From the NCBI GenBank assembly GCA_021205755.1, contig JAJPWX010000048.1:1-39975 (forward strand): a DNA stretch of 39,975 nt, given 5' to 3'. Below the pieces are notes generated by a model. The model had not been told where the DNA came from. It saw only the letters and a list, made by a program, of their open reading frames with translations, and made no database searches. The stretch comes from Lachnospiraceae bacterium. GTDB taxonomy: Bacteria > Bacillota > Clostridia > Lachnospirales > Lachnospiraceae. Position 1 is the stretch's first letter. Every line of letters begins with the position of its first letter. Below are positions 1 through 17,427 of the stretch, piece by piece. Position numbers and translations under genes: made by a program.

Positions 1-33
1 GAGGAGCTACTTGTCGTGGCTTTTAGTTGCCCC

Positions 34-55
34 TGGCCCGGGTGTGACCTGTAAC
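34..55. repeat. End fragment of a GGTCACAC palindromic repeat
   Basis: The stretch contains GGTGTGACCTGTAAC, which matches one arm of the palindromic element found whole at 32533-32594 and 27680-27734. The other arm is not recognisable here, so this looks like a truncated or diverged copy. It lies just beyond the end of the LacI-family gene. Bases 1-33 hold nothing else I can identify. Confidence 0.5.
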
Positions 56-9767: not shown

Positions 9768-9889
9768 AAAAAAGCCAAAATCAACTCGCAGGAAATTCTC
9801 GCGAGCGAGATTTCCCCGCGAATTGATTTTCGGGAGATTCGCAATGCGAATCTCCCGGGAATGCGGCTTTGCCGCATTCCGGCTTTTTT
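9768..9889 (-). ncRNA. Linker-free four-way-junction RNA element between acsB and acsD
   Basis: In the sense RNA AAAAAAGCC (9889-9881) and GGCTTTTTT (9776-9768) close a 9-bp stem. Inside it three hairpins abut exactly: GGAATGCGGC-AAA-GCCGCATTCC (9880-9858), a CGGGAGATTCGC-type stem (9857-9831), and a long arm beginning AAAATCAA and ending TTGATTTT (9830-9777). No base is left between arms. In the long arm, the two imperfect positions are G-U pairs in the sense strand but A-C mismatches in the antisense strand, favouring selection on the mRNA. It starts within the acsB stop codon and ends in U6. It could stabilise acsB mRNA, lower downstream expression, or be a mobile repeat. Confidence 0.72.
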
Positions 9890-12017
9890 ACATCATCGGT
9901 TCCATCTCGAGTGCCGGGTGACCTTTTTCGGTCAGGAACGCAAGCAATGCTTCCGGATCTTCGGTAACGACGGTCTCATCCGCAATCATATCAACGAAGT
10001 TATCGATTCCGTACAGCTCTTTCGCTGACTCGTTCAGGCGCTCTGCTACCTGGTCTTTGAGGTCTTTCGGCATCCACACGATACGGGCGATGCCGCCTTC
10101 TGCCTTCATGAACTTCTTTGAAGAGATGAAGTGCTTGCCATGGCCCATGAAGCCCGGGGTCTGTACACCGCCGCCAGTCATGGAAGCCAGCTCGGAGAAA
10201 GTCATGCCGATCGGAGTCATGCCTGCGTACTCACGGTTCGCGATGCAGACACCGTTGGAGAGCGGCTCGATACCACAGATACACTCGAAGCAGCCGCAGC
10301 TTGTCATCGGCTTTTCGATGATGGAATACAGAGATACATCCTCCAGTGCGCCCTGAGAGAACTTACGAACAGCCTCATTGACGTCCTCGTACTCACCAAT
10401 GCGCTCGTCGATGACTTTCTCTTTGGTAATTACCTGGCACGGACCCTGCGGATCCAGCTCGTTGGTCGCCTTCGCGTCCAGCCATGAAACAGCGCCGCAC
10501 AGTCCAAGACGCTCCGGCGTAACCACACAGACGTGGCTCGGAGAGAATGCCTGGCACATGATGCAGCTATAGTAAACGTCAACGCCCTCATCTGTCAGGG
10601 TCGTCAGACGTTCATCGCGCTTATCAAACATCGGAATCGCCAACTCATGGCGAAGCTTTGTACACATTTCCGGATCGGTGATGACCTTCACCTGGCATTT
10701 GTCTACAACAGCTGCGAACTCGCTCTTTACTCTCGCGTAAAGAACCTCGCCGATGTGTTTCAAACGGAAACCAGCGTTGAACGTATCTTTGCTGACACGG
10801 ATACGGATCATGTCACGCTGACCGGTGTGCATCAAGCCTTCGATGCAGTTCAGGTAAGAGTGGAACTTGCGCTCAAATACCGGCTCGAAATCTGCCTGCA
10901 TGCTCTTGCCCGCTACTTCTACTATGTAACCAATGGAATGCTTACTGCCTACTTCGAACTCGTCCAAGTCCGGTCCGATAACTTCGATCTTGTGGTCTTC
11001 TACTTCAGAAGCATCTTTATTGTGAACCAGCTCGAAGCAGTCCACGCGGGAGCCGTCAAACTCAACCTGCATATCTCCGCGGCGGATAATCTCACCCTCG
11101 AATGCTGACGCAAATGCCACCGGAATATCAATGTTTGTAATCTTAAGCTTAATGTCTCTCGCTTCCAGAGAGGTTGCGTTGAACTTGGACACATCCTCCT
11201 GATAAATCAGGCTCTTCGGTACCCTGTAGCGATCCTCATTTGAGATAACCGGGAAACCAAGCGCGATTGCTCCGCCGCCATATGCATATACCTCATTCGT
11301 AAGAGGACCATAAGCATTAACAAACGCGAACACACGATCCATTGTATATTTCTCCAGACCCGGAAGATCGCCAGGCGTAATATTTCCGAAAATCAGAGCT
11401 GCACGTACTGCCACAGATACCACGTGAATTACCGACTGCATTTCATCTCCAAGCGGGATGACACGGATATTGAAACCAGTCTTTAAGCCGAGAGATTCAC
11501 ACTGATCGATTACACCGCCAGTCAAGGTCACAAGAATGCCCTGCGCCTGATAACTCTTTACCAGATCAACGGCATCCTGCGCAGTCGGCGCTGTACCGAT
11601 AATAGCTGCTACACCAGGAATATCACCGGTAACAAGCGGTACACCAAGTTCACGAATCATAGCATCAGAAAGATGACCATAACGTGGAAGTTCATATGGA
11701 ACAGCACCGTCAATATATTTCAGAACTTCCAGAAACTCAGCGCACAAAGCAGAAGCAATGCCGGAATTAAACACATCGTTTAGTCTCGGCTTTCTGCCCA
11801 TCAGAGTCTCTTTTACATTAGCCAGCGCTGCTTTTAATTCGCCAAGATTGCCTACTTTCTGGCCAGTCACGCCATAGTAGCACGGAAGACTGTAAGCAGT
11901 ATCCGGAAAAGCTACCGCTTTGTCCTCGCCATACTGGGCAATCGCGTCATTGATCGCCTTATCAGTGCGGGCAAATAATTCATCATTTCCGCTATAGATA
12001 ATATCAAATAAAGTCAC
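9888..12017 (-). CDS. acsB: AcsB, acetyl-CoA synthase subunit of CODH/ACS
   Basis: A 709-residue enzyme that condenses CO (from AcsA through the tunnel), the methyl group of AcsCD and CoA into acetyl-CoA at its nickel-containing A-cluster. The A-cluster cysteines are visible as CIMCQAFSPSHVC, ERLGLCGAVSW and the CGCFECICG loop that supplies the Cys-Gly-Cys nickel site. The Gly-rich segments YGGGAIALGFPVISN and GGGVQTPGFMGHG fit the family. Length is close to the usual 700-730. The start is GTG (12015-12017) behind AGGAGG at 9 nt. It is directly preceded by the CooS-like domain protein. Confidence 0.96.
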   Translation of the reverse strand: MTLFDIIYSGNDELFARTDKAINDAIAQYGEDKAVAFPDTAYSLPCYYGVTGQKVGNLGELKAALANVKETLMGRKPRLNDVFNSGIASALCAEFLEVLKYIDGAVPYELPRYGHLSDAMIRELGVPLVTGDIPGVAAIIGTAPTAQDAVDLVKSYQAQGILVTLTGGVIDQCESLGLKTGFNIRVIPLGDEMQSVIHVVSVAVRAALIFGNITPGDLPGLEKYTMDRVFAFVNAYGPLTNEVYAYGGGAIALGFPVISNEDRYRVPKSLIYQEDVSKFNATSLEARDIKLKITNIDIPVAFASAFEGEIIRRGDMQVEFDGSRVDCFELVHNKDASEVEDHKIEVIGPDLDEFEVGSKHSIGYIVEVAGKSMQADFEPVFERKFHSYLNCIEGLMHTGQRDMIRIRVSKDTFNAGFRLKHIGEVLYARVKSEFAAVVDKCQVKVITDPEMCTKLRHELAIPMFDKRDERLTTLTDEGVDVYYSCIMCQAFSPSHVCVVTPERLGLCGAVSWLDAKATNELDPQGPCQVITKEKVIDERIGEYEDVNEAVRKFSQGALEDVSLYSIIEKPMTSCGCFECICGIEPLSNGVCIANREYAGMTPIGMTFSELASMTGGGVQTPGFMGHGKHFISSKKFMKAEGGIARIVWMPKDLKDQVAERLNESAKELYGIDNFVDMIADETVVTEDPEALLAFLTEKGHPALEMEPMM

Positions 12018-12034: not shown

Positions 12035-12727
12035 TTATATTGCTATCGCCGTGCGTTTTTTTTCGATATCTGCGATCAGAGCATCGGCCAACTCATCCAG
12101 GTTCGAGGAAACGGTCTGCGTAGCATCCGGCCCATTCTTAAGACCGCTTGCAGCGATGATATCCTCCAGATATCCTTCATACGGCATAATGCCAATAAAG
12201 GTGTCTACGCCCAGCCCTGCAAAGGTATTTCCAAGTTCCACTGCCTGAGCCGTCACTCCAGCCGGGTCACATCCAACCACCGGAAGCTGGGGAACAGTAA
12301 GGCCGGAATCATTGCAGAGCGCAGTTGCAATCGTCACAACATTGCCCACGTTCTCCAGCCCGCCAAGCGGCAGTACCGGAGGAATCTCCGCCAGCTCACA
12401 GACGCGTTTCAGTCCCGCGCCACAGAGGTCTTTCGCATCCGGATTCAGCAGTCCGGCCTCCGCCGCAATCTTTACTGGATAGCCAATTGCCAATACAACA
12501 ATATCATTGGCAACCAGCTTTTTGAAAAGAGCAACATACTCCTCCGTATCTCTAACCTCAGAGCCATCTGTCCCAAGCATAACAGCCGCGCCCCGGAGTA
12601 CACCGGAAACAACACATTCCAGCAATGGTTTCGTAGAGCCGGTCGTATCGACCTTAGAATTGCAGACGCCGTCCAGTGCCTGGATGATGTCTGTCACCTC
12701 AAGTTTCGGTAATGCAGAATCACTCAT
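12035..12727 (-). CDS. Stand-alone CODH C-terminal-domain paralogue lacking the C-cluster cysteines
   Basis: A 230-residue protein that aligns end to end with the C-terminal domain of the AcsA/CooS encoded 0.9 kb upstream. Shared blocks include VDTTGSTKPLLEC, DLCGAGLKRVC, IPPVL, LPVVGC and the terminal EKKRTA. The three C-cluster cysteines this domain supplies in CooS are replaced here at exactly collinear positions: GCNN becomes GTDG (Thr53), SGCSA becomes IGYPV (Tyr83), and GSCVD becomes GGLEN (Leu124). Cys102 and Cys110 of CGAGLKRVC and the VGC Cys are kept. It has its own ATG and ribosome binding site, so it is not a fragment of a broken gene. It cannot be a CODH. A structural, chaperone or regulatory role in CODH/ACS is an inference. 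Confidence 0.85.
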   Translation of the reverse strand: MSDSALPKLEVTDIIQALDGVCNSKVDTTGSTKPLLECVVSGVLRGAAVMLGTDGSEVRDTEEYVALFKKLVANDIVVLAIGYPVKIAAEAGLLNPDAKDLCGAGLKRVCELAEIPPVLPLGGLENVGNVVTIATALCNDSGLTVPQLPVVGCDPAGVTAQAVELGNTFAGLGVDTFIGIMPYEGYLEDIIAASGLKNGPDATQTVSSNLDELADALIADIEKKRTAIAI

Positions 12728-12765
12728 TTTATTCGCCTCTTTTCTTTAATAATGGTTCTTATCTT

Positions 12766-12827: not shown

Positions 12828-13604
12828 TCAGGATAGTGCACCCGGCTGATCCAGTTTTTCTTTAATTGAACGAATCTCCGCCACAGCACTATGGCTGTAA
12901 TCGTAAGGCGATGAACCATTTCGGTCCGCGTCAATGACTTCTGTATTATAATGAATGATACCTAACAAATCTTCCGGTGGGATCTTTGATTGGACAAATG
13001 CTTCGTCCTTTTCGTCTCTCACCTTATTTGCGACCACATAAACCTGTTTCACTCCGAGATCGACCGCCAGCCGTTTCACATTGCGGTAGGTCTGCACACT
13101 TCTCGCACCTGGCTCGATCACAACAATAAACGCATCCATGCCGCTTGTTGTGCCCCGCCCGAGGTGTTCCAGCCCGGCTTCCATGTCCAGAATTACGACA
13201 TCGTCTGAACGAAGCATCAGATGGTTGATAATCCTTTTTAACATCACATGTTCCGGGCAGACACACCCGCTTCCGCCGGTCTCAACGGTACCAAGCACCA
13301 GAAGCTTTACACCATTGCATTTTTTTGCGTACTTATCCGGAATATCATCCACCTTCGGATTCAGTTTAAAAATCTTATTGAATTCATCCGCGCCGGTGCG
13401 TTCCTGAACAAGCTTGCGCATTTTCGTAATCGGGACGATCTCATCAAGCGCTTCCTCATCAAATCCAAGCGCAAGTCCAAGGTTCGCGTCCGGATCCGCA
13501 TCCGCCGCCAGGACAGGACGCCCCTCATCCGCATAAAGCCGTGCCAGTGTCGCCGCAAAAGTTGTCTTTCCTACACCACCCTTACCGGTAATCGCTATTT
13601 TCAT
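12828..13604 (-). CDS. cooC: CooC-type nickel-insertion ATPase
   Basis: A 258-residue SIMIBI-class ATPase of the MinD/CooC family that helps insert nickel into CO dehydrogenase. It has the deviant Walker A GKGGVGKTT (residues 7-15), switch I DADPDANLG, the metal-binding CxC (C114-V-C116) and DMEAGLEHLGRGT in the switch II region, all diagnostic of CooC. It lies between acsA and the CODH-like domain gene. A second CooC paralogue lies upstream of acsA; this one is the closer match to the biochemically studied CooC. Confidence 0.93.
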   Translation of the reverse strand: MKIAITGKGGVGKTTFAATLARLYADEGRPVLAADADPDANLGLALGFDEEALDEIVPITKMRKLVQERTGADEFNKIFKLNPKVDDIPDKYAKKCNGVKLLVLGTVETGGSGCVCPEHVMLKRIINHLMLRSDDVVILDMEAGLEHLGRGTTSGMDAFIVVIEPGARSVQTYRNVKRLAVDLGVKQVYVVANKVRDEKDEAFVQSKIPPEDLLGIIHYNTEVIDADRNGSSPYDYSHSAVAEIRSIKEKLDQPGALS

Positions 13605-13649: not shown

Positions 13650-15542
13650 TCAGATTCCAAGAGCCGTTCTCTTCTCTTCGATGCGGTCAATCATCTTATC
13701 CACCAGCTTATCAATATCCGTCTCAACGGTGTAGCAGGCTTCTACCCAGTCGCGGATACCGCCCTGCAGCAGACCTTCTACCTCTGAAGATCCGCTTGCA
13801 TACGGGTCAACGCCGAGGAAAGTGTCAAGGCCGGTTGCTACAACGTAGTTGCCAATAGAAACAGCCTTTTCAGACATCCACTCTGGTGCACAGCCCACTA
13901 CAGGGAGTTCAGAAATATTCCATCCGGAATCTTTCGAGAGATCAGACACGAGAATCATCATACGGCTGATATCCACACAGGACCCCATGTGAAGCACAGG
14001 AGGAATATCCGCCAGCTGACATACTCTCTTAAGGCCGGCACCGCACAGATCGCGAGCGCGCTTATCCATCAGGCCTGCTTTCGCAGCTGCCTGCGCGGAG
14101 CAGCCGGATGCAACGATAATGATATCGTTTTCAATCAGCTTCTTCATCAGACCAATGTGCGCTGTATCCGGGCGAACCTTCGGGTTGTTGCAGCCTACCA
14201 TCGCGACTGCGCCGCGGATAACACCGGATTTCACACATTCTACGAGCGGCTTCAGCGTACCAGTAATATCTACCTGAGAGTTTGTTACAGTATCCAATGT
14301 CTTTTTGATTGCTTCTACAGAATAGCCAACAGTCGCTTTCTGCTTCATCTGCGGGATATGTACCAGTTCCGGCTTTCTATTCTTAAAGTTCTCGATTGCC
14401 ATCTTTACAATCGCTTTTGCATTCTCTCCGGCATTCTCCGGTGAGAAACGTATATAGTCGCTCTCCGGCATCTGCGCGATCGGTGAGGTCGTCACAAATT
14501 TGGTATGGAAGCATTTTGCAAGTGGTCCGATTGCCGGGAAAATACATTGCACATCAACAACAATTGCCTCACAGGCACCGGTCAGAATGACATTCTCCTG
14601 CTGCAGGAAATTACCTGCCATCGGAATACCGCGGCGCATAGCAACTTCATTGGAGGTACAGCAGACACCGGAAACCGTGATGCCTTTCGCTCCCATTTCT
14701 TTTGCGTAAGCAATCATCTCCGGATCATCCGCATATTCACAGATCATCTCAGAAAGTGACGGATCATGTCCATGGACTACGATGTTTACATTCTCCTCCA
14801 CCATGACACCAAGATTTGCTTCTGTGTCGATCGGCATTGGCGTACCAAACAATACGTCAGAAAACTCTGTGCCGGCCATAGAACCGCCCCAGCCATCCGC
14901 CAGACCTGCCCGTAATGACTGACGAATCAGTGCTTCCGGCTTGGAGGAACATCCCATATGGGTCATATGCATCGCGCAGGATACCTCGCGGTCAATCGCA
15001 CGCGGCTCAATTTCTTCTCTTGCCCAGATTTCCTGGGTGTGCTTCGGAGCTCTTTTAATAAAGTTCTGATGCCCAAATACTTTTCCATATTCACCCAATG
15101 CAAGAACAGCGACTTCATGAGCCAGATCGTAGATATCCTTTCCTTCGGTCTCAACACCCCATTCTTTTGCGATGCGGATCAGCTTCTCCGGATCTTTCAC
15201 CTTATAGTTGCCATCCGGTGCTGTGCAGTACAAAGTGTGGCAGATTTCGCGGCCATGATCCGAGTGTGTCGCTGCTCCGCCGGCAGTAAATCTCAGATAA
15301 TTACGGCCTACAATCCCATGCGCGTCGCAGCCGCAGATTCCGCGCGGCGCTTTCGGAGTAATACGGCATGGTCCCATCGTACAGATACGGCAGCAGACGC
15401 CCTGCTCGCCAAATTTACAGTGCGGTGTCTGATTCTTCACACGGAACTGATAAGCATCCGCGCCCACCTTTGCTCCGGTCTCGAGGAGTCGGTTTATAGC
15501 CGCTTCAAACTCCTCAACTGTTGTCAGCTTAAAGTCTCCCAT
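13650..15542 (-). CDS. acsA: AcsA/CooS, Ni-dependent carbon monoxide dehydrogenase catalytic subunit
   Basis: A 630-residue homodimeric enzyme that interconverts CO2 and CO at the [Ni-4Fe-4S] C-cluster and feeds CO to AcsB. The N-terminus has the D- and B-cluster cysteines (C42, C50, C51, C54, C59, C70/C72 in HCKFGEQGVCCRICTMG and GICGC). C-cluster ligands are visible in order: His in VVHGHDP, Cys in GVCCTSNE, GACEAIVVDVQC, VGCNN, SGCSA and GSCVD; the last four spacings fit the family. AATHSDHGRE carries the acid-base histidine. GGAGG precedes the ATG. It is followed by cooC and preceded by a second cooC, cooT and a His-rich gene. Confidence 0.96.
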   Translation of the reverse strand: MGDFKLTTVEEFEAAINRLLETGAKVGADAYQFRVKNQTPHCKFGEQGVCCRICTMGPCRITPKAPRGICGCDAHGIVGRNYLRFTAGGAATHSDHGREICHTLYCTAPDGNYKVKDPEKLIRIAKEWGVETEGKDIYDLAHEVAVLALGEYGKVFGHQNFIKRAPKHTQEIWAREEIEPRAIDREVSCAMHMTHMGCSSKPEALIRQSLRAGLADGWGGSMAGTEFSDVLFGTPMPIDTEANLGVMVEENVNIVVHGHDPSLSEMICEYADDPEMIAYAKEMGAKGITVSGVCCTSNEVAMRRGIPMAGNFLQQENVILTGACEAIVVDVQCIFPAIGPLAKCFHTKFVTTSPIAQMPESDYIRFSPENAGENAKAIVKMAIENFKNRKPELVHIPQMKQKATVGYSVEAIKKTLDTVTNSQVDITGTLKPLVECVKSGVIRGAVAMVGCNNPKVRPDTAHIGLMKKLIENDIIIVASGCSAQAAAKAGLMDKRARDLCGAGLKRVCQLADIPPVLHMGSCVDISRMMILVSDLSKDSGWNISELPVVGCAPEWMSEKAVSIGNYVVATGLDTFLGVDPYASGSSEVEGLLQGGIRDWVEACYTVETDIDKLVDKMIDRIEEKRTALGI

Positions 15543-15687: not shown

Positions 15688-16461
15688 TTACGTCAAATTA
15701 ATTTTCTTAAGGATTTCATCGAGAGCGATACGCACTGGTGAATCCTCCGGAAGTGAAGAAGTCGGCCTGCCCTCACAGTCGTATTCATAAATCTGATCAT
15801 CATGCGGTACGACACCGAGAAGCTGAAGTCCGCTCTTTTCGATCTCTTCTTTGGTACCGGCATTTAACAGCCCGTTCGGGGCACGGTTTACAATCAGCCC
15901 GATTGTTTTCGGATTCAGATGGCACTCTTCCACCAGCTCGGCAATGCGCTCCGTCGCCTGCACGCCTCTTCTGGAGCAGTCACTGATAAGCAACATTGTA
16001 TCCACCTTAGGAAGAATCCCGCGGCTGATATGCTCCATACCGGCTTCATTATCTACCACTACGTATTTGTAATTCGGAATCAGCTTTGCCAGCTGTGCCT
16101 GCAGCAATCCGTTCACATAGCAGTAGCAGCCCTGTCCCTGTGACCTTCCCATCACCAGAAGATCATAGTCATCATCCTCCGCAAGACAGCGCTGAAGCAT
16201 CATCTCCGTGTAGTCCGCTTTCGTCATTCCAGAGGGAATGCTTTTATCGAGCTTATCTGCGTCATGGAGTACGGTCTCCCGCACATCACCGAGCGTCATT
16301 TCTACGTCAACGCCAAGCACCTCGTTCAGGTTCGAGTTCGCGTCAGCATCCACCGCAAGGATCGGACGTTTTCCTTCCCCGCACATCGTCTGAATCAGCA
16401 GACCGCCGAGTGTTGTCTTGCCGACGCCGCCTTTTCCCGCAATCGCAATCACATGCGCCAT
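15688..16461 (-). CDS. Second CooC-type nickel-insertion ATPase
   Basis: A 257-residue CooC/AcsF-family ATPase with Walker A GKGGVGKTT (residues 9-17), DADANSNLNEVLG, a CxC motif in GQGCYCYVNG and VVDNEAGMEHISRGI. It is clearly a paralogue, not a duplicate, of the CooC at 12828-13604. Possibly one serves the CODH C-cluster and the other the ACS A-cluster, as proposed for CooC and AcsF in other acetogens. The start was set at ATG 16461 because AAAGGAGG lies 10 nt upstream. An in-frame TTG at 16494 would include the ribosome binding site itself, and the ATG at 16470 is too close to it. Confidence 0.88.
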   Translation of the reverse strand: MAHVIAIAGKGGVGKTTLGGLLIQTMCGEGKRPILAVDADANSNLNEVLGVDVEMTLGDVRETVLHDADKLDKSIPSGMTKADYTEMMLQRCLAEDDDYDLLVMGRSQGQGCYCYVNGLLQAQLAKLIPNYKYVVVDNEAGMEHISRGILPKVDTMLLISDCSRRGVQATERIAELVEECHLNPKTIGLIVNRAPNGLLNAGTKEEIEKSGLQLLGVVPHDDQIYEYDCEGRPTSSLPEDSPVRIALDEILKKINLT

Positions 16462-16481
16462 GAAATGCATGCCTCCTTTAT

Positions 16482-16502
16482 TTCCGCGAAGCAACGAGCC
16501 AA
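16482..16502. repeat. Short interspersed repeat TTGGCTCGTTGCT-CGCGG, copy 1
   Basis: The minus strand reads TTGGCTCGTTGCTTCGCGGAA. A nearly identical 22-base stretch occurs at 25451-25472. Both copies lie between a stop codon and the ribosome binding site of the next gene (second CooC here, rnhB there). Confidence 0.6.
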
Positions 16503-16882: not shown

Positions 16883-17308
16883 TTAGTTTTCCTGTACCAT
16901 CGAAAGCGCAAGCTTCAGATAAAGATTCCCTTTCTGGAACTCATCCACTGCTTTTTGGATCTGCTCCGCAGCAGCTTCTTTTCCATCCTCGCGAAACTTC
17001 TCCGCTACCTGATCAAGCTCTACGGCATGATGCTCGTTATGCTTCAGCATATAGTCAAGCAGCGCTACCATCTTATCGCCCTGTGCAGGCTCATTTCCAT
17101 TTGCACTGCACGCACCACAATGTTCGTGAGAATGTCCACCCTCATAATCAGGGCAATGTTCATGAGAATGGTTGTGCTCCTCCTCATGACCGTGCTCATG
17201 GGTATGCGGATGTGAATGCTCATACGTATGGGTATGAGTATGCGTATGCTCTTCGTTTTCGTGCGAATGCGGAAGCGGATTTCCGCTTTCATCCTGAACC
17301 AGATGCAT
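16883..17308 (-). CDS. Histidine-rich putative nickel-binding protein
   Basis: A 141-residue soluble protein in two parts. Residues 1-67 hold 20 His, mostly as alternating HTHTHTH, HSHPHTHEHGH and HNHSHEH runs, plus three Cys (C52, C64, C67). Residues 75-141 form a Cys-free, probably helical domain (ALLDYMLKHNEHHAVELDQV and a second helix to LALSMVQEN). It lies 38 bp before cooT at the head of the acs operon, so nickel storage or delivery to CODH/ACS is the natural inference. CooJ of R. rubrum also joins helices to a His tail, but in the opposite order. Start ATG 17308 has AAAGGGG 8 nt upstream; an in-frame TTG at 17332 lacks a site. The family could instead serve zinc or cobalt. Confidence 0.8.
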   Translation of the reverse strand: MHLVQDESGNPLPHSHENEEHTHTHTHTYEHSHPHTHEHGHEEEHNHSHEHCPDYEGGHSHEHCGACSANGNEPAQGDKMVALLDYMLKHNEHHAVELDQVAEKFREDGKEAAAEQIQKAVDEFQKGNLYLKLALSMVQEN

Positions 17309-17427
17309 AAATGTACCCCTTTCTCTTTGCAATTACATCTTTCAATCAGATATTTGCTCTGTACTACCTCATCAGCGGAAAGAGTATAGTTTTCTATGAT
17401 TGTTAATTTTTTCACGTATAAACGCAC

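Follow-up and report, generated by a model that had tools for sequence, protein, structure and literature searches.

The carbon monoxide dehydrogenase/acetyl-CoA synthase (CODH/ACS) complex makes acetyl-CoA from CO2. Its acs-type nickel CODH (Ni-CODH; CooS or AcsA) joins an N-terminal helical domain, with the B and D clusters, to two Rossmann folds, the second of which holds the C-cluster cysteines; ACS domain A1 is also a Rossmann fold, fused to A2/A3. For the CODH of C. autoethanogenum, a closest solved CODH, a loop and helix alphaA are reported to bind ACS (PMC11474084). Unusual CODHs are on record as well: mini-CooS is small and reportedly has a complete metal-cluster motif (PMC8776680), and CooS-V and CODHs with incomplete C-cluster motifs have deviant active-site residues (PMC9311411, PMC6344411). 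Here we describe a gene in the acs operon of a Lachnospiraceae bacterium (assembly GCA_021205755.1, contig JAJPWX010000048.1; the whole analyzed stretch of 39,975 nucleotides is called the window) whose product, the stand-alone protein, is a separate CODH Rossmann fold 2 that has lost its C-cluster ligands (Table 1).

A BLASTP comparison aligned residues 1-230 of the stand-alone protein with residues 399-630 of the window's CooS at 100/232 identities (43%) and 2 gap columns. CooS Cys451, Cys481 and Cys522 aligned with Thr53, Tyr83 and Leu124, with a spacing of 30 and 41 residues in both proteins, and an alignment of 114 proteins reproduced this correspondence. An earlier sequence-only reading of the locus had proposed just such collinearity and equal spacing, and it was also right that the CGAGLKRVC, VGC and C-terminal EKKRTA blocks are conserved, that the gene has its own ATG preceded by a ribosome-binding site (AGAGGCGA) and that it stands directly before acsB. 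The gap between the two genes is 17 bases. The sequence-only reading named no strand, and the open reading frame (ORF) lies on the minus strand. CooS K559, which we take to be the acid-base catalyst Lys (K563 by C. hydrogenoformans numbering), aligned with Gln161, so that the Lys is lost too, a loss that the sequence-only reading does not mention. The alignment begins at CooS 399, and the N-terminal helical domain with the B and D clusters is missing, as is Rossmann fold 1.

The stand-alone protein matched PF03063, the prismane/CODH fold family, at 81.8 bits (gathering cut-off 27; profile positions 345-483 of 513) and scored 91.8 bits for TIGR01702, the Ni-CODH catalytic subunit, below the curated cut-off of 478; Pfam and NCBIfam scans detected no domain other than the CODH fold. 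By these sequence tests it has a CODH Rossmann fold 2 and belongs to the PF03063 fold family, and it falls outside Ni-CODH, as it has neither the C-cluster cysteines of that fold, nor the catalytic Lys, nor the N-terminal domain. Identity with mini-CooS was rejected on the missing C-cluster cysteines: the stand-alone protein is a single domain without the motif reported for mini-CooS. CooS-V has the length of a CODH (chain 629 aa), whereas the stand-alone protein lacks two domains and the C-cluster cysteines. ACS A1 is distant in sequence, and the stand-alone protein is much closer to CooS and is a separate ORF, beside a full-length acsB that has an N-terminal domain itself. Pfam and NCBIfam searches yielded no dedicated family for the stand-alone protein, and none of the papers in the literature listings examined describes it, in keeping with the sequence-only reading, which knew of no named protein with this make-up.

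Among 5.8 billion proteins searched there were 113 matches to the stand-alone protein, which divide cleanly by the residues at the three cysteine positions into a stand-alone class of 66 rows (P0001 and P0003-P0067) and 47 others (P0068-P0114). Within the class, 63 proteins are 219-232 aa long, two are shorter pieces and one has a start longer by 49 residues. Position 83 is Tyr in 66/66 and position 124 is Leu in 65/66, with Val in one, and Cys occurs at neither in any of the 66. Position 53 is variable, with Thr, Gly, Cys, Ser, Ala, Asn or Val, and is Cys in 14 of the 65 readable members; the sequence-only claim that all three cysteines are replaced is true of the window's protein and does not extend to these. 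The catalytic Lys position is mostly Gln (Q 50, K 3, T 2 and A 1 in 56 family sequences). At each of the three positions that can be read, the 47 other matches have Cys; the one exception is P0114 (a piece of 149 aa), which retains only the second Cys and aligns poorly at the other two positions. The 47 look like pieces of ordinary CooS, and a plain C-terminal fragment of CooS was rejected as an identity for the stand-alone protein. An alignment of 41 of the 66 members gave a mean column identity of 77% and 55 invariant positions. Where the sources name the protein they call it 'hypothetical protein'. Those sources that carry a name are Lachnospiraceae, Clostridiales and Eubacteriales assembled from metagenomes, a few of them under the label Marvinbryantia or Blautia. 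Many source titles give no habitat and some name the gut (roe deer cecum, dairy cattle duodenum); several of the carriers thus come from animal guts. Three proteins (P0063, P0065, P0066), known from contigs only, form a subclade of shorter members (219-222 aa) with Ser at position 53.

Comparison with 69 acs-type CooS domains identified 21 positions that are fixed (at least 90%) in both families with different residues. Most of them fall within or beside the segments bearing the cysteines or the Lys (Val49, Leu51, Ser56, Tyr64, Tyr83, Pro120, Leu121, Leu124, Asn129 and Val130, together with Ile133, Asp154, Ala156, Ala160, Glu164, Leu165, Thr168, Phe169 and Leu172). Mean identity to CooS is 0.20-0.35 in the loops around the three cysteine positions and the Lys position, and 0.19 in segment 183-203, away from these. 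The pattern suggests that the former C-cluster face was rebuilt with another fixed set of residues, and not just lost. Only Cys38 and Cys110 are invariant cysteines among the 41 aligned members, and CooS also has them (65/69 and 68/69); no His is invariant in that alignment.

In a tree built from 135 domains, all 56 stand-alone rows fell into one clade (Shimodaira-Hasegawa-like approximate likelihood ratio test support 100), which is nested in Lachnospiraceae acs-type CooS and whose stem measures 1.8 changes per column; the method was 'quick' and carries a long-branch warning, and the tree does not separate the candidates for exact sister among acs-type CooS. Exact duplicates, matches <150 aa and 11 further partial or duplicate locus rows were left out, as were 27/65 stand-alone and 12/47 other search-match proteins, and the window's own protein was added separately. 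This topology points to one duplication of the CODH C-terminal Rossmann domain, followed by a burst of change and then by constraint. The median ratio of non-synonymous to synonymous change (dN/dS), computed on complete, stop-free copies, was 0.071 for the stand-alone gene (highest 0.27; 30 sequences, 324 usable of 435 pairs), compared with 0.039 for cooS (23 sequences), 0.092 for acsB (24) and 0.031 for cooC2 (13), the acsB value being probably raised by a replacement of its A1 domain that is considered below. The gene is under purifying selection and represents a conserved family. The sequence-only reading had named phylogeny and the ratio of synonymous to non-synonymous change among its checks, and absence from all relatives or loss of purifying selection as marks of decaying debris; relatives do carry the gene, and selection on it is not relaxed. 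Its broader proposal, a duplicated Rossmann-like domain kept for a non-catalytic job, stands as to duplication, ligand loss and retention by selection; the particular jobs that it listed (scaffold, CooC partner, sensor) were guesses, and the evidence here leans towards a docking role that faces ACS. An assembly artefact was rejected on the identical gene order of 24 further contigs.

In 24 of 29 loci from a genome collection, the gene stands between cooC2 and acsB, and GAGGCGA precedes it in each of them (L003-L026) and in the window. In the other five (L027-L031) it is detached, with no acs genes on the available stretch. As read from sequence, an upstream MATE-type transporter gene is common to L027 and L028, and the neighbors in L029-L031 differ, the L030 copy lying just after CsoR-like and copper P-type ATPase-like genes and the L031 copy after a sugar-kinase-like gene. 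An acs-type CooS, complete or partial and with 78-100% identity to that of the window, is present in all 29 genomes, including those with a detached copy, and 27 have an acsB match; the two without one (G421 and G423) also have only a partial CooS match. The in-operon rows all fall within a clade of 31 (support 92 in the quick tree), and the detached place may be older than the operon place because the detached members fall outside that clade. Hand counts in the window's genus gave, at E 1e-40, 22 of 47 genomes with the stand-alone gene (these overlap with the 29 loci), 15 with CooS only and 10 with neither, several of the last being incomplete (65-91%). In the six same-genus operons without the gene that were read, cooC2 leads straight to acsB and no remnant was found. 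Among 397 evenly drawn Lachnospiraceae genomes, likewise counted by hand, and among 391 genomes of the class, the gene was present in the window's own only, the other E 1e-15 matches in the class lying in frames of at least 412 aa. The gene is thus a patchy accessory, not seen without CODH in the genomes examined.

We consider it probable that the stand-alone protein is some non-catalytic accessory of CODH/ACS. The reading that we favor, with a probability of roughly 0.36, is a non-catalytic CODH mimic that would dock on ACS and would act by protein contact, not chemistry. ACS, at its A1 domain, would be the likeliest contact because the elements with which the C. autoethanogenum CODH is reported to grip A1, the loop and helix alphaA, are kept. 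The protein would take the site on ACS that CooS usually occupies and substitute for it there, capping or holding ACS while CooC2 loads nickel or when CODH is absent; alternatively, it would tune the amount of ACS bound to CODH. The fixed Tyr/Leu/Asp/Asn set on the old C-cluster face would seal the cavity left by the lost cluster. Mean identity to CooS is 0.65 in the loop (residues 23-32) and 0.68 in alphaA. In the loop, the identity between monofunctional CODHs and acs-type CooS is only 0.13, and the fold therefore does not require this loop. The stand-alone protein keeps 17 of 51 acs-type CODH signature residues (L110 was left out of the six distant acs-type rows in this comparison), and the retention of loop and helix is suggestive of docking on ACS. 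Three A-cluster alcove residues on alphaA of Moorella ACS (Arg142, Ile146 and Val149; PMC11474084) fall on Lys33, Glu37 and Val40, in a profile alignment with a probability of only 2.47% and an unsure register.

Several observations weigh against docking on ACS. Strand 1 (0.65), the CGAGLKRVC-IPPVL stretch (0.73-0.74; CGAGLKRVC block 0.73, strand 3 0.74) and strand 4 (0.76) are equally well kept without any known link to ACS, and alphaA bears no special mark, CooS and monofunctional CODHs sharing 0.53 there, so that the loop alone discriminates. The predefined loop and helix (23-41) keep 3/4 signature residues compared with 14/47 elsewhere (p 0.10), the best 26-residue window (22-47, 6/7) was equalled by 121 of 2000 shuffles, and p 0.001 was reached only by a post hoc segment (19-47, 7/8). 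Residues 1-40, the proposed contact, are also the poorest part of the predicted model (block predicted local distance difference test scores of 49-64), and about 49 of the 397 Lachnospiraceae genomes have an acs-type CooS (E 5e-50 or better) with the gene in the window's own only, which indicates that the complex can work without the stand-alone protein. A natural experiment is provided by acsB. The window, L003, L009, L010 and L022 differ from ten close relatives at 58 fixed acsB positions (57 by a second count), all in residues 6-274 and none in residues 275-709; identity of this acsB type to that of L004 is 0.74 in the A1 part and 0.99 in the rest, and the nearest A1 outside the window's own cluster (P0115) is 76% identical among the best 120 of 7989 scored candidates. 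Either the A1 part was acquired from some donor by domain exchange or it underwent a local burst of change. A partner closely reading A1 might have changed alongside it, and the stand-alone protein shows 0 fixed differences between the two groups; the test has little power because CooS, expected by homology to dock there, hardly changed either (2 fixed differences). One of these two, Val versus Ile at CooS residue 437 inside alphaA, may reflect co-adaptation, but a single residue is much too little for that claim. Comparing 25 operons with the gene (22 for acsC and acsD) and 6 without it, separating residues numbered 7/371 columns in CooS, 3/252 in cooC2, 2/707 in acsB, 3/313 in acsD and 0/87 in acsC, and no partner stands out because these residues are few and scattered; coupling to another operon gene was rejected as an indication of partnership.

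The gene's place directly downstream of cooC2 in 24/24 in-operon loci, the presence of CooS in 29/29 genomes and of an acsB match in 27/29, and a CODH fold retained although its ligands are lost would all suit a maturation helper, a chaperone or platform for CooC2/CooC1 that holds apo-CooS or apo-ACS or presents nickel, its dead face serving as an inert template. We nevertheless consider this unlikely: all six same-genus operons read do without the gene, the five detached copies have no acs-operon neighbor, and no nickel site is apparent, the two invariant cysteines being common to CooS and an invariant His being absent from the alignment. The same detached copies speak for a sensor or small-molecule-binding pseudo-enzyme that regulates CODH/ACS or something else, in which the rebuilt face (Tyr64, Tyr83, Leu124, Asn129, Asp154, Glu164 and Phe169, with Thr132) would be a new ligand pocket. 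Across 56 sequences these residues are fixed at 95-100%, and at each position except that of Thr132 CooS has a different residue that is just as fixed, which argues for new constraint and not mere loss; their clustering is, however, deduced only from the fold, there is neither a further domain in the family scans nor, by eye, a classical nucleotide-binding glycine motif, and co-occurrence with CODH/ACS favors a local role. We hold a sensor to be slightly less likely than a maturation helper.

Constant company with CooS would also fit an extra structural CODH subunit bound to CooS and functionally like the archaeal epsilon subunit. This is improbable in our view, given that Pfam and NCBIfam provide no family link to that subunit and that the majority of genomes with acs-type CooS have no stand-alone gene; epsilon was not among 50 fold-match rows, which rules nothing out. 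The patchy presence in the genus is what a decaying duplicate or neutral passenger would leave, but such debris was rejected as extremely improbable, considering the low dN/dS of 30 intact sequences, the 55 invariant positions and the conserved ribosome site.

Table 1. Coordinates of the stand-alone gene, its landmarks, neighboring genes and detached copies
Feature	Position	Strand	Remark
Stand-alone CODH Rossmann-fold-2 domain, C-cluster ligands lost	12035..12727	minus	ATG, 230 aa
Ribosome-binding site AGAGGCGA	12733..12740	minus	upstream of the gene's ATG
Thr53 codon	12569..12571	minus	C-cluster Cys 1 position; protein alignment with CooS
Tyr83 codon	12479..12481	minus	C-cluster Cys 2 position
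Leu124 codon	12356..12358	minus	C-cluster Cys 3 position
Gln161 codon	12245..12247	minus	catalytic Lys position
Codons 23-41, loop and helix alphaA	12605..12661	minus	CooS-like; counterpart of reported ACS-binding element
acsB, acetyl-CoA synthase	9888..12017	minus	709 aa; immediately downstream of stand-alone gene; family search
acsB 5' part, residues 1-275	11193..12017	minus	about A1 domain; divergent version in window's lineage
cooC2, MinD/ParA-type ATPase	12828..13604	minus	immediately upstream of stand-alone gene; family search
cooS/acsA, full-length CODH with three cysteines	13650..15542	minus	630 aa; parent family
cooC1, MinD/ParA-type ATPase	15688-16494		family search
Detached copy, L027	9001-9693		
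Detached copy, L028	4807-5499		
Detached copy, L029	2134-2829		
Detached copy, L030	8983-9678		
Detached copy, L031	3729-4424		

The window's operon runs cooC1, cooS, cooC2, stand-alone gene, acsB, acsD, acsC, acsE, acsV. We take its two MinD/ParA-type ATPase genes to be cooC1 and cooC2 and the latter to act presumably in nickel insertion. Upstream of cooC1 is a 149-aa ORF (16883-17332, minus strand) without an NCBIfam match, for which tblastn found counterparts with 48-82% identity at the corresponding site of 22/24 in-operon loci, the other two stretches ending short of the site. Predicted promoters and terminators were not in excess of those in shuffled sequence.

Published CODH surveys would have dropped the stand-alone protein because they filtered by length (<550 aa in PMC6344411, <400 aa in PMC8776680) or removed substituted motifs (PMC11338639). 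With filters of this kind, a survey can overlook a conserved component of the acetyl-CoA pathway, a point of relevance for the assembly of CODH/ACS in other hosts. For the evolution of the complex, we offer a doubtful but conceivable scenario in which gut acetogens recently repeated the presumed origin of ACS A1: CODH Rossmann fold 2 would have been copied, stripped of its metal site and put to use as a docking or gating subunit that is free and exchangeable, encoded elsewhere first and later between cooC2 and acsB. If this is true, a present-day copy of Rossmann fold 2 that is independent, lacks the ligands and is encoded beside acsB would open the presumed A1-origin step to experiment.
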